Assembly: GCA_019118605.1 (NCBI GenBank)
Contig: DWYP01000040.1
Span: forward strand, 43,621 to 107,620
Source: Candidatus Alistipes faecavium
GTDB lineage: Bacteria > Bacteroidota > Bacteroidia > Bacteroidales > Rikenellaceae
Length of the DNA: 64,000 nucleotides
Reading direction: 5' to 3'
Positions 20,079 to 63,336 of this stretch are shown in pieces. Below the pieces are notes generated by a model. The model saw only the letters and a program-made list of their open reading frames with translations. It did no database searches and was not told where the DNA came from. The first letter of the stretch is position 1, and each line of letters starts with the position of its first letter. A program made the position numbers and the translations under genes.

Positions 20079-21659
20079 ATGCAGATGAGAAAAACCTTTC
20101 AGCCCGGGTTCGGGCCCGGTCTTGTGAAGTGGCTGTTGTGTCTCGCCCTGTTTGTCCCGATGAGCTTTCTGACGGCCTGCTCCGAGGATTCGGAAGGGGA
20201 AGGCGATCCTGAGCCGGAACCCAATTCCGTACGTGTGTCGTCGACCACCACGCGCATGCCTTCGGGCGGCACGCTTTCGACGGAGTTCGCCGACTCGCCC
20301 GCAGGCTGCGGCATCGCGCAGATCGTCGACAACAACAACAGCACGAAGTTCGTTACCTCGCATACGTCGTTTCCGATCTTCTGGAGCGGCAACGAGGCGG
20401 TTTCGGTCAACAGCTACTCGCTGACCTCGGCCGACGACCGTCCCGAGTGCGATCCGAAGACGTGGGCGCTGTACGGCTCGGCGGACAACGTTTCGTGGGT
20501 GCAGCTCGACCGCCGCGAAAACCAGACGTTCACGGCGCGCAAGCAGAAACTGGAGTTCACCTTCTCCAACACGCGGCCGTACCGTTACCTCAAGCTTGAG
20601 ATCGAGACAAACAACGGCGGCGATGCCACGCAGATCGCCGAGTTGAGCATCATCGAGATCGTGCTGAACATCGACGATCTGATGCAGTACGCCTACAGCT
20701 TCACCGAGAGCGCAAGCACCCCGATGGGCTCCCACTACGCCAACAAGCACGAGACGACGGATGCCGACCGAGCATGGCTTGCCGATGCGTCGAACGAGCC
20801 CGAGGTGCCGGCCACGAACCGTCCGAACCTTTCGTGGAAGGAGTTTCCCGTGCTGCTCTATCCGACGGCCGGCATTCCGAGTCCTGCCGACGTGAACCAG
20901 CGGGGCATCAGCGACTGCTGCGCCGTGGCGGTGCTCGCATCGTTTGCCTACATCTATCCGGAGTTCATCAAGGCGATCATCACCGACAACGGCGACAATA
21001 CCTTTACCGTGGCGATGTTCGACCCGCAGGGCAAACCGGTGGACGTGACGGTAAGTTCGGTGTTCCTTGCCGATGCCAACGGCACGATCCAGGCTGCGGC
21101 GGGCAAGAACGCCGTGGCCTGCTGGTCGACGGTGCTCGAGAAGGCCATCATGAAGTGGAACGCCATCTACAAGGTGAACCCCGACATCAACGGCATCGGC
21201 ACGGAAGTCGTGGCTCCCCTGTTTACGGGCAACGGAAGCAGTTTCGCCTTCGACCGCGGGGTGCTCGAGAACGAGGACCTGGCACGCGCCGTGCGCGTCA
21301 GCCTGTGGCAGGGGAAGATTATCGTCGGAGGTTTCCATCCCGGGGATATTCCCGTCGACGGCTCCAAGACCGTTTCGGGACACGCCTATACGCTGATGCA
21401 CTCGGCCGACAAGTCGGCGTTGTTCACCATGCGCAACCCGTGGGGCGGCAACCCGGATGTCGACGGCTCGGCCGACGGCGTGCTGAACATTCCCGATGAC
21501 CTGGACGTTGCTCCGACGATCGACCTGCGGATCGTTGAGCCGGGCAAGGCCGCCCAGTACGGAACGGGCGTCACGGAGGCGTATATTCCGCCCGCCTTTG
21601 CGCCGGGGACGATCCTGATGTGCGTATCTCCCGAAGTGCTGAGGTATTCGGGCCGATAG
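20079..21659 (+). CDS. Calpain-like (family C2) cysteine peptidase lipoprotein with F5/8 type C-like N-terminal domain
   Basis: Lipobox PMSFLTAC; discoidin-like segment; catalytic triad-like motifs NQRGISDCCAVAVLASFAYIYPEF (Cys), SGHAYTLMHSAD (His), TMRNPWGG (Asn). Confidence 0.75.
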   Translation: MQMRKTFQPGFGPGLVKWLLCLALFVPMSFLTACSEDSEGEGDPEPEPNSVRVSSTTTRMPSGGTLSTEFADSPAGCGIAQIVDNNNSTKFVTSHTSFPIFWSGNEAVSVNSYSLTSADDRPECDPKTWALYGSADNVSWVQLDRRENQTFTARKQKLEFTFSNTRPYRYLKLEIETNNGGDATQIAELSIIEIVLNIDDLMQYAYSFTESASTPMGSHYANKHETTDADRAWLADASNEPEVPATNRPNLSWKEFPVLLYPTAGIPSPADVNQRGISDCCAVAVLASFAYIYPEFIKAIITDNGDNTFTVAMFDPQGKPVDVTVSSVFLADANGTIQAAAGKNAVACWSTVLEKAIMKWNAIYKVNPDINGIGTEVVAPLFTGNGSSFAFDRGVLENEDLARAVRVSLWQGKIIVGGFHPGDIPVDGSKTVSGHAYTLMHSADKSALFTMRNPWGGNPDVDGSADGVLNIPDDLDVAPTIDLRIVEPGKAAQYGTGVTEAYIPPAFAPGTILMCVSPEVLRYSGR

Positions 21660-23628: not shown

Positions 23629-23704
23629 TTGCCGTCTGCGGGTTGTGTCTGTCGATCCGAGGCGCCGAATGATGTGGTTGCGATTTACTCTGATTTTGCC
23701 TATA

Positions 23705-24109
23705 ATGATGAAAAACATGATCTCTGCGAAATGGATCCTGTTCGCGGCGGCGACAGCCTGTGTCGTTGCGGCGGCGGCAGCCCCGGGGGCGAAGCCGGAA
23801 CCCCGGACCTCTGAAACGACGGTGTCGGTTGCCGATTTCGGCGCCGTTCCCGACGACGGGAAGGACGATACGCGCGCCCTGCGCCGCGCCGCGGAGTATT
23901 GCCGCACGCACCCCGAGACGACGCTCCTCTTCCCGGCCGGGACCTACCGCCTGCGGGATGCCGCGGCCGAACGCGCAGGCGTGTGCGGGAGGGAGCTGCT
24001 GCAGGGAAAGGGGACAGGCAAAGACTTCGGCCCCTTCCTTCGGCGGGAAACGGGCGCGGACAATGCATCCGCCCCTTCCCCGGAAGGCGCGCAGGTTCCT
24101 TGCAAATGA
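23705..24109 (+). pseudogene. Truncated N-terminal fragment of a pectate-lyase/GH28-like right-handed beta-helix protein
   Basis: Signal peptide then TVSVADFGAVPDDGKDDTRALRRAAEYCRTHPETTLLFPAGTYRLRD, typical pectate_lyase_3 start; beta-helix body absent. Confidence 0.6.
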
Positions 24110-24128
24110 GGAAAATAGGCCCGTATGC

Positions 24129-24170
24129 GTGCGAGATCCTATTTTATGTGTGCGATATCCTATTTCATGA
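24129..24170. repeat. Tandem 21-bp direct repeat (18/21 identical) upstream of the surface operon
   Basis: GTGCGAGATCCTATTTTATGT then GTGCGATATCCTATTTCATGA. Confidence 0.85.
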
Positions 24171-24212
24171 ACAATAATTTGATATTTGACTGTCATAATA
24201 AATTTTAATTAT

Positions 24213-24220
24213 TATATTTG
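24213..24220 (+). promoter_or_regulatory. Bacteroidetes -7 promoter element TATATTTG
   Basis: Matches TAnnTTTG; a TTTG at 24185-24188 lies 24 nt upstream, longer than the usual 19-21. Confidence 0.55.
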
Positions 24221-24328
24221 TAAAGGTTTTTCTTATCAAAAACGGACATATATTGGTGAATACTTGCTCTTTGGAATAGCATATTCCGTGCAAGTACGGA
24301 TTGTATCGTGGAACTAAAATATTAACAT

Positions 24329-24940
24329 ATGGTAAAAAAACTACTCGTCTCGGCATGCTTCGTTGTCTTTTGCCTGTTTGGATCGCAAGCCCAGACAGTA
24401 AAGGCTACCGTGGGAATCAAGGGCATGGGTATCGCCACCATGCCTAATACCGAGCTTGAGCCTACGACCAAGGTGCAGTTCGGAGGTGGCGGCGGCGCTT
24501 TTGCCGGAATGCTCGTCGGAAAGACCCTGGGCATTCAGGCCGAAGCCCTGTACTCTTACCAGATGGCGAGCTTCGACTACGACAACGGGTATCGCTCCTC
24601 GACCTACAAGACGACAAAACAATACGTCCATATCCCCGTATGCCTCCAGCTCTGGTGCGGCCGGAACTTCGCCTTCGAGTTCGGCTACGAGCAGGCTATT
24701 GCCATGTCGGGACGTATCGACGACGGCGATACGGTGCGTCCGGATGCCGGAATCCTCGATTACGGCAGTCTTGTCGGTGGCATGGTCATCAACATGGGCA
24801 AGGTGGTGTTCCTGAACATCCGCTATGTCCATGCCCTGCAGAACAGCTATGTGATGATGGTCGATCCGAGCAAGGCGCAGTCCCTGCAGGTCAGCCTCGG
24901 ATTCAGATTCTATACAAGCAGGAAGTCGGTATTCAAATAA
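24329..24940 (+). CDS. Outer-membrane beta-barrel protein (PorT/OMP_b-brl-like)
   Basis: Signal peptide, ~200 aa, alternating beta-strand pattern, C-terminal barrel strands (LQVSLGFRFYTSRKSVFK). Confidence 0.65.
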   Translation: MVKKLLVSACFVVFCLFGSQAQTVKATVGIKGMGIATMPNTELEPTTKVQFGGGGGAFAGMLVGKTLGIQAEALYSYQMASFDYDNGYRSSTYKTTKQYVHIPVCLQLWCGRNFAFEFGYEQAIAMSGRIDDGDTVRPDAGILDYGSLVGGMVINMGKVVFLNIRYVHALQNSYVMMVDPSKAQSLQVSLGFRFYTSRKSVFK

Positions 24941-24964
24941 CCCAAACCAGGCAAGATCACGATC

Positions 24965-27229
24965 ATGAAAAGATTCCTCATATTAGCAGCCGTCGTGTTG
25001 ACAACCGTACGGTGTACCCATTCGTATGAAGAGGGGATGTCCGGTTCGTTCCCGTTCATCGAGCTCATGTCGTCCAGCGAGCTGGTGTTCGACGCCCAGG
25101 GAAGCGAATCGAGTCTCACGGGAACAATCCTTATCCATACCAACATGGATCTCTCGGCCTCGGTCTCCTACCTCGAATTCGACGGGAACTGGGTCAACGA
25201 AGTCCGTATCGAAAGCATGGGCAACGAGACGTCCGTTTATGTCCAGCTGAGCCCCAACACGCTTCGCTCCTCGCGCGCCGCGATCGTCAACATCCTGGCC
25301 GACAATCAGCCCACCGGGCTCGAGGTCTACGTACGGCAGAACGCTTTCGAGATGAACGGCGTGACGAACGTTCACGACGGAGACCTCTATATCTCCAGCC
25401 AGTCCGATGCCGACAACTGCATCTATACCGACATCGAAGGGCGCCTGATCCTCGGGCAGACGAACTCTTCGTCCTATTACTGGAGGGCGCTCAGCGACAA
25501 CCGCCTCTTCTTCACCGACAACGACATCCAGAGCCTTGCAGGGCTTGAATTCATCCAGCGTGTCGAAGGCGGCTTCGTTGCCGGCGGCCTGAGCTACCTC
25601 GACGCGATGTGGGACTTCCCGCAGGGACTGACGTTCCCGCTGGTCGAGTTCGTCGGCTGCAATCCCAACCTGCTGTATTCGTTCGAGTGCGTGACCGACG
25701 AGCTCTACATCTCGGAGTGCAGCCAGTTCTACTCCCTGGAATTCCTGAACGCGATCCACGGGGTGAAGAAGCTCTACATGCAGAACAACTTCGTGTCGGA
25801 CCTCTACGGCATCGGCAGCGCTTCGGAGCTCCAGGAGCTGCACTTCGTCCGGAACTCCTGCTCCGGGGATATCTCCCAGCTGGCGCCGCTTTCGCATCTG
25901 GCGCTCCTCGACCTCTCGGAAAACGCCTTCGAGAGAATCGACGGCATCGCCATGCTGTCGGGGCTCGAGACCCTCGACCTGAGCGGGAACAACATCGGCA
26001 ACATCAACGAACTGGCCGACATGAAGTGGCTGAAGTCGCTCGACATCTCCTCTCTCCCGATCTCCCGCTATCAGGCGAACTACGTGAGCGAGTCGCTGCC
26101 CGGTACGGTCGTGAAGGCCTCCAACCCGACCAGCGACAACGTGTCGCTGTCGCTCTCGCCGACGGTGCTCGATTCCGACCGGGCGCAGCTCTCGGTGAGC
26201 ATCTCGGGCATGTACAGCGGCTTTGAGGCCGGGGTCGTGCTGGTGAAGGGCACCGAGTTCGACTTCTCGGCGCGTCAGCTCGTGGAGTCGATCTATACGA
26301 ACGGACAGTTCACCCTCGATGTTCCGGGTCTTGAGTCCGGTACGACCTATACGGCCTGGCTTTACACGATCGACGGCAACGGACGGATCTACCTCTCCGA
26401 CCGTGCGTCCTTCACGACGAACACCGAGATCATCTACAAATACACCTTTACGGCGAATATCCCCTCCTACGACAACACCGCGCAGAGCGGCACGATCGGT
26501 TCCATCCGGGGTCTGCGCCTGTACAACAACAACTCCACGCTGATGACCGAGAACGTCAATCCCGTGGCCGGCATGGGCAGCAGCTATTCGTTCTCCACGA
26601 ACGAGGGGCAGTGCGACCTGATGCTCTACGGGCTGGGCACGGGCTCGAATACGGTGCAGATCGAATACTCCTACGGCGATACGGGCGCGCTGTGGGCCAT
26701 CAGCAGCGAGAATGCCGCGGGCGGCCAGGGCCTGGGCACCGACATCGTGGTTGCAGCCACCTCGGAGGTGCTCGAGACGGACGTCGTGAAGGACATCGAC
26801 TTCATCCGTCCCGTGGCGCAGGTGGCGATCACCGCCGAATTCGAGAACCTTGAGACCGTGGCGGCCGTCACGTCGATCCAGATGACCATGGACAACATGT
26901 ACGGCAAATACACCTTCGGAAGCGGCCAGAGCGGGACCTACAGCGGCACTTCGACGTGTTCCTTCTCGGCAGTCACGACCTCCGGATCCACGATCCAGAC
27001 GCTGGTTCCGGGCGCCTATGTCTTCCCGAACATCAGCTCGGGAACCAGCAGCGCGGAGGTAGTCCTCACCCTTTCGGACGGAAGCCGGAACATGATCCAG
27101 ACGAAACTTCCCGAACATATCTCCGCGAACAACCAGTACAACATAAACATCGCGATCGCATACAACCGTACGACCGGCAGTTTCACGGTCGAGGAGATCG
27201 AGGTCGTGGAGGACGTAATCGAATTTTAA
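24965..27229 (+). CDS. Lipoprotein: BACON-like + leucine-rich repeats + FN3-like + fimbrillin-like C-terminus
   Basis: Lipobox VVLTTVRC; LRR motifs (LALLDLSENAFERIDGIAMLSGLETLDLSGNNIGNINELADMKWLKSLDIS); fimbrillin-like C-terminal half. Confidence 0.65.
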   Translation: MKRFLILAAVVLTTVRCTHSYEEGMSGSFPFIELMSSSELVFDAQGSESSLTGTILIHTNMDLSASVSYLEFDGNWVNEVRIESMGNETSVYVQLSPNTLRSSRAAIVNILADNQPTGLEVYVRQNAFEMNGVTNVHDGDLYISSQSDADNCIYTDIEGRLILGQTNSSSYYWRALSDNRLFFTDNDIQSLAGLEFIQRVEGGFVAGGLSYLDAMWDFPQGLTFPLVEFVGCNPNLLYSFECVTDELYISECSQFYSLEFLNAIHGVKKLYMQNNFVSDLYGIGSASELQELHFVRNSCSGDISQLAPLSHLALLDLSENAFERIDGIAMLSGLETLDLSGNNIGNINELADMKWLKSLDISSLPISRYQANYVSESLPGTVVKASNPTSDNVSLSLSPTVLDSDRAQLSVSISGMYSGFEAGVVLVKGTEFDFSARQLVESIYTNGQFTLDVPGLESGTTYTAWLYTIDGNGRIYLSDRASFTTNTEIIYKYTFTANIPSYDNTAQSGTIGSIRGLRLYNNNSTLMTENVNPVAGMGSSYSFSTNEGQCDLMLYGLGTGSNTVQIEYSYGDTGALWAISSENAAGGQGLGTDIVVAATSEVLETDVVKDIDFIRPVAQVAITAEFENLETVAAVTSIQMTMDNMYGKYTFGSGQSGTYSGTSTCSFSAVTTSGSTIQTLVPGAYVFPNISSGTSSAEVVLTLSDGSRNMIQTKLPEHISANNQYNINIAIAYNRTTGSFTVEEIEVVEDVIEF

Positions 27230-27241
27230 ACGGGACGAACC

Positions 27242-30160
27242 ATGAAAGTGAAAAACATATTGATCGGTATCGCCGCCGCCCTGGCGGCAGTCTCCTGCAA
27301 CGTGGAGGACGAGGCGGTCCTTCCCGGCGCGGCGTCGGACGGGCTGTTGAAGATCCGGCCGCGGCTGCAGCAGCTCGACGTGCAGACCCGCAACGCGGAG
27401 AATGCGCTCATTGCCTACATCCCCGATTCGCTGAAGAATGCGCGGGTGCAGCCCATCGCCTCCTCGATGATCCGCGAGAACGTCTACTACTACAACCTTC
27501 CGGAGACCGCCACGTCGGTGCTGTTCACGAACCTCGCCAGCACCGCGGAGGAGAATGTCCGCTTCGGACTCGAGGAGACCGGCGGCCTGATGGTCGTGCT
27601 CCGGGACAGCACCCGTGCGGAACTCTCGCAGGAGATCCTTCTCGGGGGCCTTTCGGGCATTCTGGCGGGCAATGCGACTCCCTACGACGTCTCGATCCGG
27701 CGTCTGTCGTCGAAGATCACGGCCAGGCTCGTGCTGACGGATGCCAACGGCACGCCGCTGGAGGATACGGCCGAGCAGCTTCTGGCGGCTTCGGTGGCGA
27801 TCGACAGCCTGGGCACCTTCGTGCGCATCCACGACGATTTCACCACGGAAGGGTGCGGCTATACGACGCTCGAGAGCACGTTCTCTGCGGATGCGTCGTC
27901 CTTCACGACTCCGACCTACGACATCATCCCGGGCCGGGAGCGCCCGCGGTGCCGCCTGACGATCACCGACAAGAGCGGCACGGTGAAGACCTACACCAAG
28001 GAGCTGGACCAGCCCCTCGAAGCGAACCGCAACTATATGGTGACGTTCCGCCTGCGGCAGGTCAACGGGAATGTCAGCTTCACCTTTGAGGACGTGTCGG
28101 TCTCGACCTATTCGACGACCGCCGGCATGGACGATGTCGACATGTTCTCGATCTCCGGGAATCCTTCGGTCGGGAAGCAGGCCGGGGACTCCACCAATCT
28201 GTACATCACCCCTCGTCTGAACTACACCTGGGACTATGAACTGCGTTCGGGCAGCGAATACTTCAGTGTGGTACGTATCGGCAACATGCTGACCGTCAAG
28301 GCCCTTTCCGACAACGAGAGCGAGGCGCGCGTGGGTGTGATCCGTCTCACCTCCTCCAATGCCGACGAATATATGGATGTGACTGTGAGCCAGTCCAACG
28401 TCACGCGTCAGACCATCCGTCTGACGAAGGCACACAGCTCCTCACTCGATTTGTATGTCGACGGGACCAACGTGACGATCACGGGCGGGAATGTCAATAT
28501 GAGCTACGAAGGCCGCAACAATACGAATGTCTCGATCAGCAATGACGACCTGCCTCTCGGCGAGGTGCTCACCATCAGCGGAGACGAACTCTACTCGCTG
28601 ATAGCGAGAGCAGGTTTTCTCAATACGCTTTCCGACAGTTTCGCGTTCGAAAACTGCGTAGCATTGCAGTCGCTCGAGATTAGCAGCTCGGATGCGACGC
28701 TGGATGTCTCCTCCCTTCCGGCACTGACGAATCTCAAAATCAATTCCTCCGCCTTGACGTCGATGACCTTTGCCGAGGGCCAGCCCGTATCGAATCTCAG
28801 CATTTCATCCTGCCACAACATCGAAAGCCTCGATCTGACCAATATCTCGGCCTCGCTGCGGAACCTGACCGTTTCCTCGTGCGACAAATTCTCCTCGCTG
28901 ACGATCTATCCGAGCGATTTCAGCGGCGAGAAGCCCCTCGAGAAGGTGAACTTCGAGAGTTGCAACAGCCTGCTGGGCATGAGCCTGCTGAACTATACCC
29001 GGCTGCGGGAAGTGTCGTTCAACAGCTGCCGCAACATGGGAACGATCAATCTTTCGGGCTGCAGCTCGCTCTACGAGTTCTACCTTTACGGCTGTTCGGC
29101 GGCCTACGTCAACCTGAGCGACTGCGCTTCGATGCAGCTGCTGCGGCTTCAGTCCGTATCGCTGGGCGAGCTCAATCTTGCGGGCACGCCGCTCGAGAAG
29201 ATCGACATGATCACCTCGGTCACCGTCTCGAAACTCGATGTCTCGGGCATGACCTCGCTCAAGACCATCGAAGGGAACTTCACCTGCTCGACGTTCAATG
29301 CGAGCGGCTGCACCTCGATGGACATGATCGACAGCCGGATCTACAGCGTCAAGGACCTGAACGTCAGCGGCTGCTCCTCGCTGCGGAATCTCTCCTTCTC
29401 GGTCAATACGAGCGATCCGGTCATCCTGGACCTCTCGGGCCTCTCGCAGATCGAATCGCTGACCGTCAGCGACCTGAATGTCGCCGCGGACCTGAGCGGG
29501 CTCAAGTCCCTCAAGTCCCTGTCGCTCTCCTCGCTGCGGAATGTGGCGTCGCTGGATCTTTCGGCGTGCGAGTCCCTCGAGACGTTCTCGTGCAGCAGTT
29601 CCACGCGCGACCTCACCTCCCTGGCGCTTCCGCAGAGCCTGCAGAGCTTCTCGCTCGATTACTCGGGTCTCGAAACGCTGTCGCTTGCCGGCTATGCCAA
29701 CCTGAAGGACTTCCGCATTGTGGGCACTTCCCTGCAGACGGTGGACCTTTCGGGCTGCACGGCGCTCGTGAAATGCAACTTCTACAACAACAGCTCCCTG
29801 ACGTCGATCGACCTGGGCAGCTGCAGCTCGCTCGCCGAAGTGAACCCGGACTACGAGAACGGTTACAACCGGTCGGTGACGTCGATCAACCTCTCGGGCT
29901 GCTCGTCCCTTACGAAGTTCTCGTTCTCCAATGCGGCGCTGACGTCGCTGGATCTCAGCTCGAGCACGCTTCTGAGCGCCGTGAACGTGAAGAACAACAA
30001 TTTCGATGTCGACGGCGTGAACAACATGCTCCGGACCCTTCCCGACCGGTCGTCGAATACGGCAACGGGTGTCGTTTATCTGTACGGGAACCCCGGCGTG
30101 GAGGGCTACGATACGAGCATCGTTGCGAACAAGAACTGGTATATTGATACAACCTTATAA
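27242..30160 (+). CDS. Lipoprotein: FimB/Mfa2-like N-terminus, BACON-like segment, long C-terminal leucine-rich-repeat region
   Basis: Lipobox AALAAVSC; MIRENVYYYNLPETATSVLFTNLAS...YDVSIRRLSSKITARLVLTD; many LxxLxLSxCxxL repeats. Confidence 0.65.
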   Translation: MKVKNILIGIAAALAAVSCNVEDEAVLPGAASDGLLKIRPRLQQLDVQTRNAENALIAYIPDSLKNARVQPIASSMIRENVYYYNLPETATSVLFTNLASTAEENVRFGLEETGGLMVVLRDSTRAELSQEILLGGLSGILAGNATPYDVSIRRLSSKITARLVLTDANGTPLEDTAEQLLAASVAIDSLGTFVRIHDDFTTEGCGYTTLESTFSADASSFTTPTYDIIPGRERPRCRLTITDKSGTVKTYTKELDQPLEANRNYMVTFRLRQVNGNVSFTFEDVSVSTYSTTAGMDDVDMFSISGNPSVGKQAGDSTNLYITPRLNYTWDYELRSGSEYFSVVRIGNMLTVKALSDNESEARVGVIRLTSSNADEYMDVTVSQSNVTRQTIRLTKAHSSSLDLYVDGTNVTITGGNVNMSYEGRNNTNVSISNDDLPLGEVLTISGDELYSLIARAGFLNTLSDSFAFENCVALQSLEISSSDATLDVSSLPALTNLKINSSALTSMTFAEGQPVSNLSISSCHNIESLDLTNISASLRNLTVSSCDKFSSLTIYPSDFSGEKPLEKVNFESCNSLLGMSLLNYTRLREVSFNSCRNMGTINLSGCSSLYEFYLYGCSAAYVNLSDCASMQLLRLQSVSLGELNLAGTPLEKIDMITSVTVSKLDVSGMTSLKTIEGNFTCSTFNASGCTSMDMIDSRIYSVKDLNVSGCSSLRNLSFSVNTSDPVILDLSGLSQIESLTVSDLNVAADLSGLKSLKSLSLSSLRNVASLDLSACESLETFSCSSSTRDLTSLALPQSLQSFSLDYSGLETLSLAGYANLKDFRIVGTSLQTVDLSGCTALVKCNFYNNSSLTSIDLGSCSSLAEVNPDYENGYNRSVTSINLSGCSSLTKFSFSNAALTSLDLSSSTLLSAVNVKNNNFDVDGVNNMLRTLPDRSSNTATGVVYLYGNPGVEGYDTSIVANKNWYIDTTL

Positions 30161-30168
30161 GACCGGCC

Positions 30169-31065
30169 ATGAAAAGACTATTTTATCCTGTCATATTATC
30201 TGCGCTGGCGATGACGATCGCCGCATGCGAGAAGGAGCGCGGGACGGATCCAGCCCCTGCTCCGGAACCTGCGCGGCATGCCGTGAGCGTCACTCCCGAG
30301 ACGTCGCTGCTGGGCAACGGGACGACGGTCGATGTCCTGCAGGATCCGATCTATGCCTACGCCTTCAACTCCGAGGGTCAGAGCGACGGGCTGGCCATCA
30401 AACCTTCGTCGATCAGCAACGGGTCATACACCTACATGATCCCCACGGATGCCGCGACGCTGATCTTCAGCAACCGGATGAGCGACGATACGATGAACGT
30501 CGTTTCCGAGGGCGACAGCCTGGTCTTCATCTACACGAGCATTAACACGAAGGATCTTGTGGCCGGGACCGTAGCTGTCACGCAGGGAAGTTCCTCGTAC
30601 GGGGTGAACCTCCGGCGTCTGACCGCGAAACTGGACCTCGAACTGGAGATGAAGGCCACGGACGGGACCATCCTGGACTGCCACGATTACATGCAGTATG
30701 CTTCGGTGCAGGTTTACAGCCAGGCCAAGAGTACTTCCATCAACGTTCATGGGGAGGTGAAACTCTCGGAAACCCCGATTCCCTATCCGTTGACCCCGGG
30801 CCTTCAGACAACTCCGGGTACCTATCTGTATCCGATCTGTTCGGATATTTCCATCTTCCCGACCGCTCCCGGATGGCCCGAGACGATCGAACTGACGCTT
30901 GTCAACCAGGAGGGCGCGGAGTCGACGCTCAGCAGGACGCTCGACTATGTCTTCGAGGCCAACAAGCACTACAAACTCAGGCTCAGCATGAAACGTGTCG
31001 AGACGGGCTCGCAGTTCGTCATCGACGAGATCGTGAACGAGGAGCTGACGGTGGATCTCAACTGA
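30169..31065 (+). CDS. FimB/Mfa2-like fimbrillin-associated lipoprotein
   Basis: Lipobox ALAMTIAAC; IYAYAFNSEGQ...YTYMIPTDAATLIFSNRM...SYGVNLRRLTAKLDLELEMKATDG resembles the preceding protein. Confidence 0.55.
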   Translation: MKRLFYPVILSALAMTIAACEKERGTDPAPAPEPARHAVSVTPETSLLGNGTTVDVLQDPIYAYAFNSEGQSDGLAIKPSSISNGSYTYMIPTDAATLIFSNRMSDDTMNVVSEGDSLVFIYTSINTKDLVAGTVAVTQGSSSYGVNLRRLTAKLDLELEMKATDGTILDCHDYMQYASVQVYSQAKSTSINVHGEVKLSETPIPYPLTPGLQTTPGTYLYPICSDISIFPTAPGWPETIELTLVNQEGAESTLSRTLDYVFEANKHYKLRLSMKRVETGSQFVIDEIVNEELTVDLN

Positions 31066-31091
31066 AGGAGGAGAAATAAAACGTTAAAGCC

Positions 31092-31883
31092 ATGAAAATC
31101 AATACGAACAATATGAGATGCGGCTTGTTCTGCGGTTTGATCCTGCTGCTGGGGGTTTCGTGCCAGAAGACGGTTGTCGGGGATGAGGGAACGGCGCTGG
31201 AGACGACGACCATCCATTTCATTCCCGAGGAACTCGACATCGACGTGGAACCTGCGTCGCGGGCGGTGCTCGGAGAGACGGACATCTACTGTTACGCCTT
31301 TGTCAACAATACGCTCGTGGAGGGATACCCTGCCAAGCAGACCGAGATCAACAACGGCGTCTACTCCTTCATTATCCCCAAAAGCACCAACACGCGCCTG
31401 TGTTTCGTGATCAAGCCCGACTGGCTCGGATGGAAAACCAGTTCCGGGAATGTGATATTCGATATCTGGTGGATGAACCGTGAAGAGATTGAACTCTACA
31501 GTTCCTACTCGCAGTGGTACGACACCTCTTCCGAAGGGGTTCAGACCATCAGCGCGTCGCTCAATCAGCAGCATTACGACATTCACCTGCGCTTCCAGTT
31601 CATCAATTTTCCCTCCGATCCGAAGGACGTCATCAAAGACCTTTACCTTACGTTGAGCGACGCCGTCGGCCTGAACTTCTCGCTGGACGAGCTGCAGCCG
31701 GAGACCGAGGGAGGTGTGGAGTATCTGTCCACGGACCTGCATGCGCTGATCCCGAGCGGCAGCGGCTCGGGGCTTTACGCGGAGTTCTACACCGTCTTCG
31801 GAGTCCGCCGGGCGTATATACGCAACATTACGTCCGTGGAGTCGAAAATTACCGTGACGGTCAACTACGAAAATCTGAGATAA
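31092..31883 (+). CDS. FimB/Mfa2-like lipoprotein
   Basis: Lipobox LILLLGVSC; IYCYAFVNNTLVEGYPAKQTEINNGVYSFIIPKSTNTRLCFVI pattern shared with neighbours. Confidence 0.5.
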   Translation: MKINTNNMRCGLFCGLILLLGVSCQKTVVGDEGTALETTTIHFIPEELDIDVEPASRAVLGETDIYCYAFVNNTLVEGYPAKQTEINNGVYSFIIPKSTNTRLCFVIKPDWLGWKTSSGNVIFDIWWMNREEIELYSSYSQWYDTSSEGVQTISASLNQQHYDIHLRFQFINFPSDPKDVIKDLYLTLSDAVGLNFSLDELQPETEGGVEYLSTDLHALIPSGSGSGLYAEFYTVFGVRRAYIRNITSVESKITVTVNYENLR

Positions 31884-31915
31884 AACATTATAACCCAAAT
31901 TAACCCAACAAAAAG

Positions 31916-32602
31916 ATGAAAGCAAAAGTAATTCTTTCGGCTCTTTTCGCCATTTCGATGCTCCTTGCCGCCGGCGAGGTTGAGGCCCAGGTTGCCACCA
32001 AGAAGGAGGTCAAGCAGGTCCAAAAACACGAGAAATTCCTGAACAAGCAGATCAAGGAGAAGGCCATCAAGCAGGCCCGCAAGGAGGCCAAGCGCCTCGA
32101 GAAGCAGGGCTACAAGGTTCCCGTGGGCCAGATTCCGCTGGCCAAGCAGCTGGAGAACTCGTGGCAGGCGCAGTATGAGATCGACGGCGACGGCTATCCG
32201 TACTACTTCACCGCCACGGCCTCGACCGTCGGCAGCAACTACACCGCCACGCAGATGCAGGCCGTGAATACCGCGAAGCTCGATATCGCCGGACAGATCC
32301 AGACGCAGGTCAACCAGCTCATCGAGGCGAAGATCGCCAACAACGAGATCAGCAAGGAGGATGCCGTGTCGATCAACTCGTTCGTGAGCGCCAGCAAGAG
32401 CGTGATCTCGAATTCGCTGGGCCGTGTGCTGAAGCTCGTGGAGATCTACCGCGTGCTCGACAACGGCAACAACGAGGTGATGGTAACCCTCGGTTACAAC
32501 ACCGACCTCGCCATGAAGGAGGCGATCAAGGCCATGCAGAAGACGCTCGATGCCGATGCCGACAAGCTGATGGACGAGCTGAACCTCCTGTTGGAGAAAT
32601 AG
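31916..32602 (+). CDS. LPP20-like exported protein
   Basis: Signal peptide; TQMQAVNTAKLDIAGQIQTQVNQLIEAKI...VLKLVEIYRVLDNGNNEVMVTLGYNTDLAMKEAIKAM pattern. Confidence 0.5.
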   Translation: MKAKVILSALFAISMLLAAGEVEAQVATKKEVKQVQKHEKFLNKQIKEKAIKQARKEAKRLEKQGYKVPVGQIPLAKQLENSWQAQYEIDGDGYPYYFTATASTVGSNYTATQMQAVNTAKLDIAGQIQTQVNQLIEAKIANNEISKEDAVSINSFVSASKSVISNSLGRVLKLVEIYRVLDNGNNEVMVTLGYNTDLAMKEAIKAMQKTLDADADKLMDELNLLLEK

Positions 32603-32612
32603 TCCGAGGCTT

Positions 32613-33407
32613 ATGAAAAGGATCTTTCTGCTGACCTTTTGTCTGCTGACAGTGTGGGCCCTTCATGCCGGCGAGACGACCGTCAAGGTTCGGAAAGCGG
32701 TCGGGAGATGGGAGGTCAGCGGAGACCTTTCCATGGCCGAAGCGGAAGAGAGGGCGCTCAACGAGGCGAAAAAGGACGCGTTGAGCAAGGCCGGAGTCAT
32801 GGAAAACGTCTGGTCGGTCTTCGGACAGGTTACGTCCGACAACGGAACGGAATTCGCCGAGGCCTATTCGTCGGTGAGCATCCTGGCGATGAACGGCCTT
32901 GTGAATGTCACCAGCAAGGAGGTCGAGGATCTTTGGGATCCTGTGGCGCGCAAATTCTTCAAGGTCGTCACCATCGACGCCACGGTGACCAAGAGCGACA
33001 TCCGCGAGGATCGGAGCTATGTGCTGGAGGTAAACGGCATCGAACCCGTCTACAAGGAGTCCGACCTGTTCCGCTGTTCGCTCAAGGTGCACGGGGCCGA
33101 TTCCTACGTGAAGTTTTTCTGGTTCGGGGACTCGGGCGCCGACATGATCTATCCGAACGAGTACGAAGGGAACCAACTCTTCAAGGCCGGTAAGACGTAT
33201 GACTTTCCGCTGACGGATGCGGTCGAGATGGTGATGTCGAAAGCCGATGCGAAGGCCGAGGTCGAGAAGGTGAACGTGATCGTCGTGGCGACCAAGAAGG
33301 ACTATCCGTATATCGGCGAGAAGGACTACCTCTCCATCCTGAGCTGGATCTTCAATCTTCCGGCCGACCAAAGAACATTGTATTACCATATGACTTTAAT
33401 CAAATAA
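32613..33407 (+). CDS. Exported protein with DUF4384-like domain and LPP20-like N-terminus
   Basis: Signal peptide; AEAEERALNEAKKDALSKAGV; LKVHGADSYVKFFWFGDSGADMIYPNEYEGNQLFKAGKTYDFP resembles DUF4384. Confidence 0.55.
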   Translation: MKRIFLLTFCLLTVWALHAGETTVKVRKAVGRWEVSGDLSMAEAEERALNEAKKDALSKAGVMENVWSVFGQVTSDNGTEFAEAYSSVSILAMNGLVNVTSKEVEDLWDPVARKFFKVVTIDATVTKSDIREDRSYVLEVNGIEPVYKESDLFRCSLKVHGADSYVKFFWFGDSGADMIYPNEYEGNQLFKAGKTYDFPLTDAVEMVMSKADAKAEVEKVNVIVVATKKDYPYIGEKDYLSILSWIFNLPADQRTLYYHMTLIK

Positions 33408-33408
33408 C

Positions 33409-36039
33409 ATGAAGCGGTTTCTTTGTCTGATCATCATGATCTTCTGCGCGGCGACATACGGCGCGCATGCGGATAATTTCAAATGGATCAAGGAAATCCG
33501 TTACGAGCAGATCCGGCCCTACAGCGACGGGATGAGTGCCTTCATGCAGAACAAGAAGTGGGGCTACATCGATACCGAGGGCAATGTGGTCATCGAGCCC
33601 GTGTACGACGAGTGCCGCGACTTCAAGAACGGGGTGACGATCGCCAAGCTGAAGGGCAAATGGGGCGTCATCGACAAGAAGGGCAACTGCTCCTCGGGTT
33701 TCATCTTCGATGCCGTGAACGACTTTTCGGACGGCCTGGCCTATGCGAGCGCCGGGAAGAAGCTCTATTTCGTCAAGGAGAGCGGCTCGATGCAGGTGCT
33801 CTCCGACGACTACATCTACGGCAACTTCACCGAGGGCATGGCCCCGTTGATGAGCAAGAAGAAGAACAAGTGGGGCTTCATCAACTCCAACGGCATCATC
33901 GTCATCGAACCCAAATACGATACCGTATACAACTTCAGCAACAACACCGCGCTGGTCAAGAAGAGCGGCAAGTACTACTATATCAACCGCAAGGGCGGTC
34001 GCAAGAATGTGGATCTGTCGATCATGCAGCCGCTGAAGTACGTGAACGGCTATGCGAAGATCAATGTCGCTTCGGGCGTCGGGTTCATCGACAAGGAGTT
34101 CAAGGTGCTCCCGATTTACGGCAAGGAGGCCACGGACTTCAACAAGGAGGGCACGGCCGTGATGCTCATGGAGGACAAATCGGTGATCTATATCAACGGT
34201 TACGGAAAACCCGTGCTGAAGACCGACTGGGACCGTGTGGGCAACTTCTACAACGGCCTGGCCTGGGTTTCGAAGAACGGCAAGTACGGATACATCAACA
34301 CCCGCGGCGAGCTGGCGATCGACACCCTTTTCACGTCGGCGAGCGACTTTTCGGAGGGTATCGCCTTCGTCTCGGCGAACGGACGCTTCGGCAGCATCAA
34401 GAAACTGAATCCCGGGGAGGTGATCCCGCAGCTTCAGATCAACGGGATCAACATCCACGACGCCAACAACAACGGGAAGGTCGAGGCCGAGGAGAAGTTC
34501 AGCATCAATGTGGCGCTGAGCAATCCCACGAGCGAGAGACTTCAGGACGTGACGTTCCAGTTCGCTTCGCAGCAGGATGTCGCCGACTGGTTCCAGTTCG
34601 ACAACCAGATGGTTCAGATCCCGGAGCTGCGCGCCAACGCCGATACGGTGATTACCTTCACCGGAACGGCCAACCTGTCGCTGATCTCCTCGGATATCAA
34701 GATGAAGTTCCGCGGTCTGGCAAGCAATACGTTCGATCCCGTGGAGAGCGATTTCGAGTTCGAGGCCCTGGGTATCAACGCCTGCCGTCCGGTGATTACC
34801 CGCTATTGGGTCTACAAGGACAACCACACGCAGATCGGTCTGGGCGACGAGGTCAACCTCATGATCGCCATCAAGAACGACGGAAAGGACATGGCCAAGA
34901 ACGTTCAGGTCGACCTCCAGTGGCCTGTCGGCATCTCCTCTCCGCAGGGGAGCCTTTCGGTTCCGTTGATCCGCCCGGGCGAGACGAAGGAGCTCACGGC
35001 GCACTTCGTGGTCGATTCGCTCTATGCGGACGGACTCACGGTGGTGGCCAAACTTTCGGAGTACACCCGGCAGCACCGGGATGTCAAGTATCTGTCGTTC
35101 TATACGGGGCGCATGAATGCCGAGGTGAACCTCGAAGGCGGCGGCCCGATGATGTACCAGTACGAGCCGCAGTATTTCGCCCAGAACGTGGCTGTTCCGA
35201 CGACCCCACAGGTTGTGACCGTCGACGAGGTGACGCAGGACGTGGGCAAGGAGAAGGCGCTGGATTCGGAGCTGCTTGACGGCATCTCGCGTGTCAACAC
35301 CCCCGATCCGAACAAATTCGCCCTTGTCATCGGCAACGAGGATTACAACTCCTTCAAGCAGACCACGAGCTACGAGGTCAATGTGGATTACGCCGCCAAG
35401 GATGCCACGGCCTTCGCCGAGTACGCCAAGGACTACATGGGCGTCCCGGAGAGCAACGTGATCCTGCTGAAGAACGCCACCTACGCGCAGATGAATTTCA
35501 ACATCAACAAGCTGATGATGATGAGCAAGACGAACCCCGGGAACGTCAAGCTGTACATCTTCTACGCCGGGCACGGACAGCATGACGTGGACAGCAAGGA
35601 GACCTATCTGATTCCCGTGGACGTGAGCATCTCGTCGCCGACGGCGGGCATCAAGCTCGAAAAGCTCTATGCCGACCTCGGGGAGAGTAAGGCCAAGCGG
35701 AGCATGGTGTTCATGGATGCCTGCTACAGCGGGGTAGGGCGCGGTATCGTCATCAAGCCCAAGGAGGCGCCGATCAGCGGCAACATCGTGGTCTTCACGG
35801 CTACGTCGTCGACGCAGCGTTCGATGCCCTACCAGGAGAAGAAGCACGGACTCTTCACCTACTACCTGCTCAAGACGATCCGGGACAACAACGGAAACAT
35901 CTCCGTGGGCAGTCTTTACGATTCGGTGAAGAAGGAGGTGGTGAAGAACTCCATCTGGATCAACAATTCGGAGCAGACCCCGGAACTTCTCAACGGCCAG
36001 AACATCGACTCCGGCTGGGAGAACTGGACGATCTATTAG
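33409..36039 (+). CDS. Exported WG-repeat protein with C-terminal caspase (C14-like) domain
   Basis: Signal peptide; WG repeats (KKWGYIDTEGNVVIEPVYDECRDFKNG; KGKWGVIDKKGN; NKWGFINSNGIIVIEPKYDTVYNF); caspase block KFALVIGNEDYN...KLYIFYAGHGQ...SMVFMDACYSG. Confidence 0.88.
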   Translation: MKRFLCLIIMIFCAATYGAHADNFKWIKEIRYEQIRPYSDGMSAFMQNKKWGYIDTEGNVVIEPVYDECRDFKNGVTIAKLKGKWGVIDKKGNCSSGFIFDAVNDFSDGLAYASAGKKLYFVKESGSMQVLSDDYIYGNFTEGMAPLMSKKKNKWGFINSNGIIVIEPKYDTVYNFSNNTALVKKSGKYYYINRKGGRKNVDLSIMQPLKYVNGYAKINVASGVGFIDKEFKVLPIYGKEATDFNKEGTAVMLMEDKSVIYINGYGKPVLKTDWDRVGNFYNGLAWVSKNGKYGYINTRGELAIDTLFTSASDFSEGIAFVSANGRFGSIKKLNPGEVIPQLQINGINIHDANNNGKVEAEEKFSINVALSNPTSERLQDVTFQFASQQDVADWFQFDNQMVQIPELRANADTVITFTGTANLSLISSDIKMKFRGLASNTFDPVESDFEFEALGINACRPVITRYWVYKDNHTQIGLGDEVNLMIAIKNDGKDMAKNVQVDLQWPVGISSPQGSLSVPLIRPGETKELTAHFVVDSLYADGLTVVAKLSEYTRQHRDVKYLSFYTGRMNAEVNLEGGGPMMYQYEPQYFAQNVAVPTTPQVVTVDEVTQDVGKEKALDSELLDGISRVNTPDPNKFALVIGNEDYNSFKQTTSYEVNVDYAAKDATAFAEYAKDYMGVPESNVILLKNATYAQMNFNINKLMMMSKTNPGNVKLYIFYAGHGQHDVDSKETYLIPVDVSISSPTAGIKLEKLYADLGESKAKRSMVFMDACYSGVGRGIVIKPKEAPISGNIVVFTATSSTQRSMPYQEKKHGLFTYYLLKTIRDNNGNISVGSLYDSVKKEVVKNSIWINNSEQTPELLNGQNIDSGWENWTIY

Positions 36040-36094
36040 CGTTGCGGGCCCGGATCTGATTCCGGGCGTCCGCAGGGGCCTACACACAAGGAGC

Positions 36095-36146
36095 CAGCAA
36101 GAGAAGGCCTCTTCCCATACGGAAGAAGCCTTCTCTTGCTGTTTTG
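36095..36146 (+). terminator. Rho-independent terminator closing the surface/caspase operon
   Basis: CAGCAAGAGAAGGC ... GCCTTCTCTTGCTG followed by TTTT. Confidence 0.85.
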
Positions 36147-36242: not shown

Positions 36243-36345
36243 GCGGTTCGGCCGCGGTTCGATTGCGGTTCGATTGCGCCCGGCCGCGGTTCGATTGCGT
36301 CGGTTATGCCCGGCTGCGGTTCGACTGCGGGTCGGCTGCGCCCGC
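36243..36345. repeat. Degenerate tandem repeats of an ~11-bp unit GCGGTTCGATT
   Basis: GCGGTTCGGCC GCGGTTCGATT GCGGTTCGATT GCGCCCGGCC GCGGTTCGATT ... GCGGTTCGACT GCGGGTCGGCT. Confidence 0.8.
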
Positions 36346-58922: not shown

Positions 58923-59861
58923 ATGATACCTCAATTTGAACAAATTAGAATACAAGCGTTGAAAATACTAAAGTCAGGGGCTGTTATGAGGGCCAAAGAT
59001 TTTCGAGTTCCTTTGGCAGAACATTTTCATTTGACAGATGACGAGATGAATGCTTGGTATCCTTCAGGTAATGGCGAAATATTTTTAGATCGTATTTCTT
59101 GGGCTTTGTCTTATCTATTTATCGCTGGTTTAGTTGAAAAACCCAAGCGAGGCGACTATAAAATTAGCGATAAAGGGTCGGCTATGCTCGAATCATGTTC
59201 CGATGAACAGATAAGTGAGTATATTAAGGCAACTGTTAACGCACGGACTCCAAAGAAAAATTCTAAAAATAAATTAGAAGAAGTATCCGATGCGACCGAA
59301 GAGAATGAACCTACTCCTCAAGAACGTTTATATAATTCGTATGATAATATAAAGCAGTCCATCCAATCAGAGATTCTTACGACGATACTTAGCAAAAAAC
59401 CACAAGAATTAGAACGGTTAGTCGTGAGATTACTTCAAGCAATGGGATATGGGGGAGAAGTAAAAAACTCTGGATTTATTACAAAACTTTCTAATGATGG
59501 AGGCATTGATGGCATTATAAAAGAGGACATTCTTGGTTTTAATTATATTTATATTCAAGCCAAGCGATATGCTTTAGGCAATAATGTAGGACGTAATGAG
59601 GTACAAAGTTTTGTAGGAGCTGTTGCTGGGACTTCATCTAAAAAGGGCGTTTTTATTACCACTTCTGATTTTACAAAAGGAGCAACAGATTATGTTGATA
59701 GCTTGAATGGTTCGCCAACTATCATTTTGATCAATGGGCACCAGTTAACAGAATATATATATGATTTCGGATTGGGTCTCCAAACAGAAATGACATTTAA
59801 GGTAATGAAAATGGACAGTGATTATTGGGATTCAATGGAAGAAGACAAAAGCGACAAATAA
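58923..59861 (+). CDS. Mrr-type restriction endonuclease
   Basis: N-terminal winged-helix-like Mrr_N; catalytic PD-(D/E)XK block NDGGIDGIIKEDILGFNYIYIQAKRYA; RNEVQSFVGAVAGTSSKKGVFITTSDFTKGATDYV. Visibly AT-rich relative to flanks. Confidence 0.9.
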   Translation: MIPQFEQIRIQALKILKSGAVMRAKDFRVPLAEHFHLTDDEMNAWYPSGNGEIFLDRISWALSYLFIAGLVEKPKRGDYKISDKGSAMLESCSDEQISEYIKATVNARTPKKNSKNKLEEVSDATEENEPTPQERLYNSYDNIKQSIQSEILTTILSKKPQELERLVVRLLQAMGYGGEVKNSGFITKLSNDGGIDGIIKEDILGFNYIYIQAKRYALGNNVGRNEVQSFVGAVAGTSSKKGVFITTSDFTKGATDYVDSLNGSPTIILINGHQLTEYIYDFGLGLQTEMTFKVMKMDSDYWDSMEEDKSDK

Positions 59862-61937: not shown

Positions 61938-62255
61938 ATGAATAATATGATAGCGTTTGATGTCTTAAATCCAGGTGAGGTGGCCATGCGGATTGCGGCG
62001 AGAGTCAAAGCTCGGAGATTGGAGCTGGATTTGACGCAGGAGGGTTTGGCTGTGAGAGCAGGAATCAAGTTCGCAACCTATCGCAAATTTGAGCAGACGG
62101 GAGAGATCTCATTGAAGGGGCTGCTCCAGATAGGCTTTGCCTTGAATGCTCTTTCGGAGTTCGACGCTCTTTTTGCGCAGAGGCAATATCAATCGCTCGA
62201 TGAAGTCTTGAACGAGCAAAGTGTCACGCGTAAACGAGGCCGGAAAAATGAATAG
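61938..62255 (+). CDS. HipB-like XRE-family antitoxin
   Basis: ARVKARRLELDLTQEGLAVRAGIKFATYRKFEQTGEISLKGLLQIGFAL, HTH; overlaps HipA by 8 nt. Confidence 0.85.
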   Translation: MNNMIAFDVLNPGEVAMRIAARVKARRLELDLTQEGLAVRAGIKFATYRKFEQTGEISLKGLLQIGFALNALSEFDALFAQRQYQSLDEVLNEQSVTRKRGRKNE

Positions 62256-63336
62256 CATCAAACAAATCGAAGTTCTTCTTGCGGATCGGTTGGTGGGTCG
62301 TCTGGCTCTGACCAAGGAGGGGTTGTGTGCATTTGAATATGCTCCCGATTGGCTCGGTTCGGGTTTCTCCATTTCTCCCTTTGAGTTGCCTTTGCGAAGC
62401 GGTGTTTTTATTGCCAAACCGCGTCCGTTTGAGGGAGGATTCGGTGTCTTCGATGATTGCCTGCCCGATGGATGGGGCCTCCTTATCCTGGATCGCTACT
62501 TGCAGCAAAAGGGAATCAATCCTCGCGCGCTTACTCTGCTGGATCGCCTCGCATTGGTTGGGTCATCGGGACGTGGGGCCCTGGAGTTTCGTCCGGATCA
62601 TAGTGTCGTGACGCGACAGGATTATGCCGATTTCGAGAAGCTGGCATTGGAAGCAGAGCGGATATTGGACAGCGACGAATATAAGGGGGAAGGCATCGAG
62701 GAGTTTCAAGATCGTGGTGGCTCTCCGGGTGGCGCACGTCCCAAGATCTTCGCCCGTTATGAAGGCAAAGAGTGGCTGGTAAAGTTTCGAGCCAAGAGAG
62801 ATCCGCAGAGTATTGGTGTGGATGAATACCGCTATTCGTTGCTTGCTAAAGAGTGCGGAATCGAAATGCCTGATACGCGGCTTTTCGAAGGCAAGTACTT
62901 CGGCGTGGAGCGTTTTGACCGAACGCCTCAAGGCAAGTTGCATGTTGTTAGCGTGGCTGGTCTTATCGGTGCTGATTATCGGTTGCCCAGTATCGACTAC
63001 AAGCATATTTTTCAGGTGTGCGCCGTGCTGACGCATAGCGTAGCCGAATTGTGGAAAGTCTATCGACTGATGGTGTTCAATTATCTCATCGGCAACAAGG
63101 ATGACCACGCTAAGAACTTCGCCTTTATTCATCGGGATGGCGATTGGCGTTTTGCTCCGGCCTATGACTTGTTGCCCAGCGATGGCATTAACGGTTTTCG
63201 CACGACCTCAATCAATGACAGTATCGAACCGACGAAAGACGATCTTTTGGCAGTGGTAGCAAAGGCTGGGTTGAATGAGCAAGAGGCGGATACAATGTTT
63301 GATAGGGTACGAGAGCGGGTTAGTAATAAGAGATAA
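62248..63336 (+). CDS. HipA-like serine/threonine kinase toxin
   Basis: FGVFDDCLPDGWGLLILDR, RGGSPGGARPKIFA, WLVKFRAKRDPQSIGVDEYRYSLLAKECGIEMPDTRLFEG..FGVERFDR, NYLIGNKDDHAKNFAFIHRDGDWRFAPAYDLLPS. Confidence 0.95.
   Translation: MNSIKQIEVLLADRLVGRLALTKEGLCAFEYAPDWLGSGFSISPFELPLRSGVFIAKPRPFEGGFGVFDDCLPDGWGLLILDRYLQQKGINPRALTLLDRLALVGSSGRGALEFRPDHSVVTRQDYADFEKLALEAERILDSDEYKGEGIEEFQDRGGSPGGARPKIFARYEGKEWLVKFRAKRDPQSIGVDEYRYSLLAKECGIEMPDTRLFEGKYFGVERFDRTPQGKLHVVSVAGLIGADYRLPSIDYKHIFQVCAVLTHSVAELWKVYRLMVFNYLIGNKDDHAKNFAFIHRDGDWRFAPAYDLLPSDGINGFRTTSINDSIEPTKDDLLAVVAKAGLNEQEADTMFDRVRERVSNKR

Follow-up and report, generated by a model that had tools for sequence, protein, structure and literature searches.

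An operon of fimbrillin-fold lipoproteins and an exported WG-repeat caspase, conserved in several Bacteroidales genomes

What could an exported caspase be doing in one operon with a set of pilin-like lipoproteins? The question is raised by eight co-directional genes (g1-g8; 24329-36039, forward strand) found in Candidatus Alistipes faecavium, within a stretch of 64,000 nucleotides that was analysed as a whole (hereafter the window; Table 1). An initial annotation, made from the letters alone, had described eight co-directional reading frames spaced by about 1-32 nt, all coding for exported proteins and four of them with lipoboxes, and all of this proved to be present: the gaps from g1 to g8 measure 24, 12, 8, 26, 32, 10 and 1 nt, and (as judged by eye) the signal peptides of g2-g5 end in a lipobox Cys in all five genomes that carry the full set, those of g1, g6, g7 and g8 being of the ordinary kind. 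The strong downstream terminator that it proposed was likewise recovered, as a terminator-like hairpin. Its upstream boundary (tandem repeats and a promoter) held in part: the repeat exists and is short (21-nt unit, 24124-24169, 2.2 copies only), and the promoter is plausible only, since TTTG stands 24 nt upstream of the Bacteroidota-type -7 element TATATTTG, slightly more than the spacing usual in the Bacteroidota promoter consensus (TTTG and a -7 element).

Table 1. Positions in the window of the operon genes and of their boundary signals
Feature	Position	Strand	Description	Evidence
Possible promoter	24185..24220	+	TTTG (24185-24188) and TATATTTG (24213-24220), spacing 24 nt	read from sequence
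g1	24329..24940	+	outer-membrane beta-barrel protein, 203 aa	PF13568 28.6 bits (cut-off 27); 53-55% identity in four genomes
g2	24965..27229	+	lipoprotein, 754 aa	LRR_4 38.4 bits; C-terminal fimbrillin-fold domain
g3	27242..30160	+	lipoprotein, 972 aa	LRR_EndoS 62.9 bits; N-terminal fimbrillin domain, BACON-like domain, C-terminal LRR
g4	30169..31065	+	fimbrillin-fold lipoprotein (Mfa2-like), 298 aa	Mfa2 PF08842 19.7 bits (under the 21.2 cut-off)
g5	31092..31883	+	fimbrillin-fold lipoprotein, 263 aa	AlphaFold2 pLDDT 75; Foldseek
g6	31916..32602	+	exported protein without a named family, 228 aa	65-69% identity in four genomes
g7	32613..33407	+	exported DUF4384-type protein, 264 aa	PF14326 26.4 bits (under the cut-off of 27)
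g8	33409..36039	+	exported caspase, 876 aa	PF14903 191 bits; PF07705 25.9 bits; PF00656 70.5 bits
Terminator-like hairpin, then GTTTT	36096..36140	+		-43.3 kcal/mol including the outer stem, z -5.7

The operon is flanked by a truncated pectate-lyase-like ORF on one side and a ChaN-type gene on the other. The former (154 aa, 23645-24109, just 5' of the operon) matches only the first part of the pectate-lyase-like family PF12708 and looks like a gene truncated at the operon boundary. Just 3' of the terminator, between convergent genes, lies a degenerate tandem repeat (36243-36344; unit of ~30-32 nt) with a GCGGTTCGATT core. A second exported cysteine peptidase is encoded no more than 16 kb from the operon, as a lipoprotein (20079-21659) with a calpain/papain-like domain (PF00648) and perhaps also one of the F5/8 type C kind. 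Long antisense ORFs (e.g., 24983-28435, minus strand) were rejected as genes, their GC3 being ~0.5 vs 0.7-0.9 in the operon genes; they are by-products of G+C-rich codon positions.

Profile comparisons and one structural model show that the four lipoproteins share a single type V pilin (fimbrillin) fold, to which LRRs are fused in g2 and g3. The profile of g4 matches those of g3, g5 and g2, aligning with the N-terminus of g3 (283 columns) at 99.3% (1.5e-20), with the C-terminal part of g2 at 97.8% (7e-13), and with g5 at 96.5% (9.6e-10). The domain search gave no family match for g5 (nor for g6), and the g5 model retrieved fimbrial and cell-adhesion structures of Bacteroides in Foldseek, with 3t2l, 4ecn, 4eps, 5nfi (Mfa2) and 5dhm (Mfa4) among the hits, at probabilities of 0.99-1.0. 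On account of the low superposition scores obtained with the Bacteroides LRR protein BT_0210 (4ecn) and with Mfa2 (TM 0.24-0.26, 9-11% identity, in spite of a probability of 1.0 for both), this likeness should be read as a statement on fold class only. The presence of FimB/Mfa2-like and fimbrillin-like lipoproteins, and of LRRs in g2 and g3, had been anticipated in the initial annotation; the fold is borne out by the profiles, the g5 model and Foldseek, and the repeats by the LRR_4 and LRR_EndoS matches.

As its fimbrillin domain is N-terminal and its LRRs are C-terminal, g3 has the domain arrangement of a tip subunit of type V pili (PMC12632263), with the LRRs as the putative binding domain; its orthologues match Mfa_like_1 (3.8e-6) and BACON. 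In g2 the N-terminal region (with a BACON match in four of the five orthologues) is followed by the LRRs, a possible Fn3 domain and the fimbrillin-fold domain, and matches covering most of its profile were limited, in a sample of 247 genomes, to the window's own genome.

Read from its genes alone, the operon has in common with the type V pili of Bacteroidia (FimA/Mfa1 family) subunits that are lipoproteins of fimbrillin fold, one of which (g3) has its putative ligand-binding domain at the C-terminus, and a conserved Arg/Lys behind the first strand (g3 and g5); clan CD proteases are known to mature the pilins of this class (PMC5954841, PMC12632263). Unlike every type V pilus operon whose description we found, it also encodes a C14 caspase, a DUF4384 protein, g6 and an outer-membrane barrel, and its g2 has the fimbrillin domain at the C-terminus, behind the LRRs, in reverse of the tip layout.

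The caspase (g8) carries WG repeats (six stretches), CARDB-like domains and, at its C-terminus, a Peptidase_C14 domain, whose YAGHG and DACYSG motifs are invariant across five orthologues. With the His-Cys dyad (Cys772) intact and a clear match to PF00656, the exported WG-repeat caspase that had been recognised from its HG and DACYSG motifs is confirmed. His, Cys and two Asp were kept in 31-32 of 32 Bacteroidales C14 domains (both Asp, at the positions expected in an acidic S1 pocket, in all 32), and we take the two Asp positions of g8 to match the S1 pocket residues of metacaspases. These acidic residues predict cleavage after Arg or Lys, as in the characterised non-metazoan C14 enzymes (PMC5756287). 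The domain search of g8 found no C25 domain and no type IX sorting domain (the protein ends with the C14 domain), and because this sorting domain is absent the caspase may stay in the periplasm, while pilins mature at the surface.

The closest points of comparison are the prokaryotic orthocaspases, some of which, in cyanobacteria, contain DUF4384 or WD40 domains (PMC7475262); they likewise have a C14 p20 domain with a His-Cys dyad and DUF4384 and WD40 as recurrent partners. Here, however, DUF4384 is a separate exported protein, and g8 combines its C14 domain with WG repeats, CARDB domains and a signal peptide. Further clan CD proteases are gingipain R (C25) and clostripain/fragipain (C11), which cut after basic residues and act on type V pilins or surface lipoproteins; they belong to other families, g8 being a C14 enzyme with a presumed substrate. 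Among the papers searched we found none that links type V pili with caspases, and none that links WG repeats with bacterial caspases; the parts are of known kinds, and no description of their combination was found.

The DUF4384 assignment of g7 is strengthened by a relative (L126, 5210-6079) that clears the PF14326 cut-off with 28.6 bits. The AlphaFold model of g7 was poor (pLDDT 39) and was set aside, and a sequence search of solved structures gave no matches for g6, g7 or the caspase. Profile comparison detected no kinship between g6 and g7; a single protein of 334 aa (L115, 9334-10335), with a C14 caspase nearby, matches both profiles, and this natural fusion suggests that g6 and g7 may work together.

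Is the operon more than a chance assembly? The scan for g8, which covered contigs of GTDB representatives, recovered four orthologues (59-62% identity): one in Candidatus Cryptobacteroides faecavium, one in Ca. C. avicola and one in each of two uncultured Bacteroidales. In all four genomes (L032-L035) the eight genes are present in the same order. The neighbourhood check that the initial annotation had put forward hence came out in its favour for the near relatives of the caspase. An acetyl-CoA hydrolase gene adjoins the operon in L032 and L033 and a topA-like gene (identified by eye) in L034 and L035, which, with the window included, makes three kinds of chromosomal site in five genomes. The same order in four independent genomes is more than chance would give and, since the sites differ, the parts travel together: the eight genes are one conserved unit. 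That the whole block recurs elsewhere suggests that a caspase and the surface fibres of bacteria may be linked in a way not yet described.

This eight-gene set occurs rarely: of the 180 genomes available for the window's genus, only the window's own has a clear g7 (a second one has a distant match, 4e-12), and in the genus of L032 g7 was found in five of 151 genomes, three of these matches being strong. Operon and host have the same GC content in each genome (57.7 vs 57.8% for the window; 48-50% in the relatives), which rules out a recent transfer as judged by composition, so that any transfer is old. Plasmid and phage cargo were also discarded: g7 had no match in plasmids, and the C14 domain had one weak (25%) match in phages.

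The genes of the set diverge at very different rates. Within L032-L035 identities reach 83-93% for g6, 71-81% for g7, 68-77% for g8 and 66-75% for g1, and 29-47% only for g2-g5; between the window and these four genomes they are about 60-69% (g6-g8), 53-55% (g1) and 24-36% (g2-g5). With 24-47% against 53-93% for the other four genes, the lipoproteins are the variable face of an otherwise conserved set. This pattern (24-47% vs about 60-93% for g6-g8 in the same genomes) would also fit the main rival to an adhesin, namely an envelope sensor with the caspase as its output, in which LRR/fimbrillin lipoproteins bind a ligand, the barrel and g6/g7 relay the signal and the caspase cuts an unrelated envelope target, the variable front being an exchangeable sensor. 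The acetyl-CoA hydrolase site, occupied by g1-g7-g8 only in one genome and by all eight genes in two, points the same way, as do the WD40, WG or TPR repeats that distant caspases carry as alternative binding parts and the likely signalling peptidases described beside sensing domains (PMC3482391). Nevertheless, all parts are exported and no signal route is known for them, the operon has no obvious inner-membrane signal protein, and fast divergence is normal for adhesins too; we regard such a sensor as rather unlikely.

The genome with the reduced set (L136, from the genus of L032) is informative in its own right. At the same acetyl-CoA hydrolase site it has g1-g7-g8 only, with a g8 of 39% identity that retains the WG, CARDB and C14 domains, and two fimbrillin-like lipoproteins are encoded within 10 kb, in the opposite (convergent) direction. 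As only g1-g7-g8 stand at the site of two full copies, the fimbrillin genes appear to be cargo that an older module has taken up. In the sample of 247 Bacteroidales genomes, 23 have a relative of g7 and 28 a relative of g6. A C14 caspase lies close by at 15 of 40 loci chosen by g6 or g7 alone, in spite of the low number of such genes per genome (a single C14 gene in that of the window, one or two in each of L032-L035). The other neighbours of g6/g7 relatives are WD40 propellers, WG proteins, DUF4384 proteins, TPR proteins and further small families; in the 97 proteins that neighbour g6/g7-type loci, none of the 25 commonest families is a fimbrillin or LRR family. Since most g6/g7/C14 relatives are without fimbrillins, the older job of this core would be something other than fimbrillins. 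The partners that the initial annotation had assigned to the caspase are accordingly kept in near relatives and reduced to g1 and g7 in the 39% relative, and the fimbrillin/LRR proteins are not constant companions of this caspase type: distant exported C14 caspases are accompanied by DUF4384, g6-like, WD40, WG or TPR proteins. In two loci (L123, 220-4995; L128, 8318-14720) an exported caspase is followed by one or two stand-alone WG-repeat proteins; the layout resembles a duplication of the binding part, and in L128 the signal peptides closely resemble each other.

One could go further and suppose that g1-g6-g7-g8 serve a general envelope function (e.g., stress-responsive turnover of outer-membrane proteins) and that the fimbrillins are only co-transcribed, with no direct contact to the caspase. 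The fimbrillin-free loci just described are consistent with this, and so is L135, which keeps g6-g7 with no caspase found beside them. We nonetheless consider it unlikely, as the eight genes stay joined in five genomes and three kinds of site despite the divergence of g2-g5, and as L136, a genome with no more than 6 Mfa_like_1 matches, has its two fimbrillin-like lipoproteins within 10 kb.

Type V pili rely on proteolysis. We tentatively prefer to see in the operon a type V pilus-like adhesin that bears LRRs and is accompanied by a dedicated exported caspase, which processes or controls it; we hold this reading as possible. The joint travel of the eight genes, the shared fold of g2-g5, the conserved Arg/Lys and the acidic S1 residues are the reasons for it, and action of the caspase on the fimbrillins would be the most economical mechanism. 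From these data we infer a surface location, a specificity and a substrate for g8, and roles for g1, g6 and g7, along the following lines. The g2-g5 proteins would be synthesised as lipoproteins and transported to the surface of the outer membrane, where g3, with its C-terminal LRR domain, would form the ligand-binding tip, and g4 and g5 the stalk or anchor subunits. The caspase, held at the outer membrane by its own WG/CARDB domains together with g7, g6 and the barrel g1, would cut the fimbrillin subunits after an Arg/Lys, within the loop that follows their first strand, and this cut would license, time or reverse their assembly. The model for such a cut is what two other clan CD proteases, gingipain (C25) and clostripain (C11), do to known type V pili; to our knowledge, neither is encoded with pilins.

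The candidate cleavage site is an Arg/Lys at one aligned position (Arg50 in the window's g3), found in g3 and g5 of all five genomes and in g4 of four (the window's g4 being the exception); the next residue is Ala or Ser in 13 of 14 cases. In the g5 model this residue (Arg57) falls in the loop between the predicted strands 38-50 and 66-71, and for g2 no comparable basic site was identified. Mfa1 is cleaved at Arg49, just N-terminal to the putative donor strands, and arginine gingipains are required for its normal polymerisation (PMC5954841). The two fimbrillin-like proteins of L136 have a T-K near residue 50, and the basic site is therefore probably general for fimbrillins and not specific for a g8-type caspase.

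A dedicated role for g8 is also weakened by the C11 clostripain-family protein encoded in all six genomes checked, since surface clostripain is described as the type V pilin protease in Bacteroides (recent review, PMC12632263); no C25 gingipain-type protease was matched in the six genomes, nor in the control genomes, so that such proteases may nonetheless be encoded there. Further Mfa_like_1 matches outnumber the one or two C14 genes found in the window's genome and in each of L032-L035: the genome of the window has 3, none of them on the contig of the operon, and the remaining genomes have 6-19. Most fimbrillins are therefore encoded without a neighbouring caspase, which, together with the missing Arg/Lys of the window's g4, takes further weight from a dedicated role. 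The stricter proposal of a self-contained caspase-matured fimbria, that is, a class of type V pili with its own C14 caspase in place of a shared gingipain or clostripain, and with g6/g7 and the barrel as holding and export parts, appears doubtful to us. If the preferred reading of a caspase-controlled adhesin is true, the operon ties pilus assembly to a dedicated protease and offers a natural substrate on which exported bacterial caspases can be tested. Beyond the operon itself, the data point to a broader and apparently undescribed Bacteroidales module of exported caspase, DUF4384 and g6-type proteins, in which the binding parts are exchanged between genomes.

A variable exposed part joined to a conserved effector part, a patchy distribution and the occurrence of bacterial caspases in conflict systems (PMC7159879) could also bring to mind defence or cell death, with the caspase as an executioner freed upon contact of a phage or toxin with the variable proteins at the surface. 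We deem this very improbable: all parts are exported, in contrast to intracellular caspase effectors, PADLOC matched none of g1-g7 and assigned g8 to a generic caspase model only, and no further defence gene was noticed closer to the operon than an Mrr gene 23 kb away. This Mrr-type restriction endonuclease (58923-59858; Mrr_N 74.9 bits, Mrr_cat 104.5 bits) has a GC3 of 0.28 vs 0.6-0.9 in most genes and was probably acquired recently. The same low-GC stretch encodes a HipA-type toxin kinase (62221-63333; HipA_C 156.9 bits).
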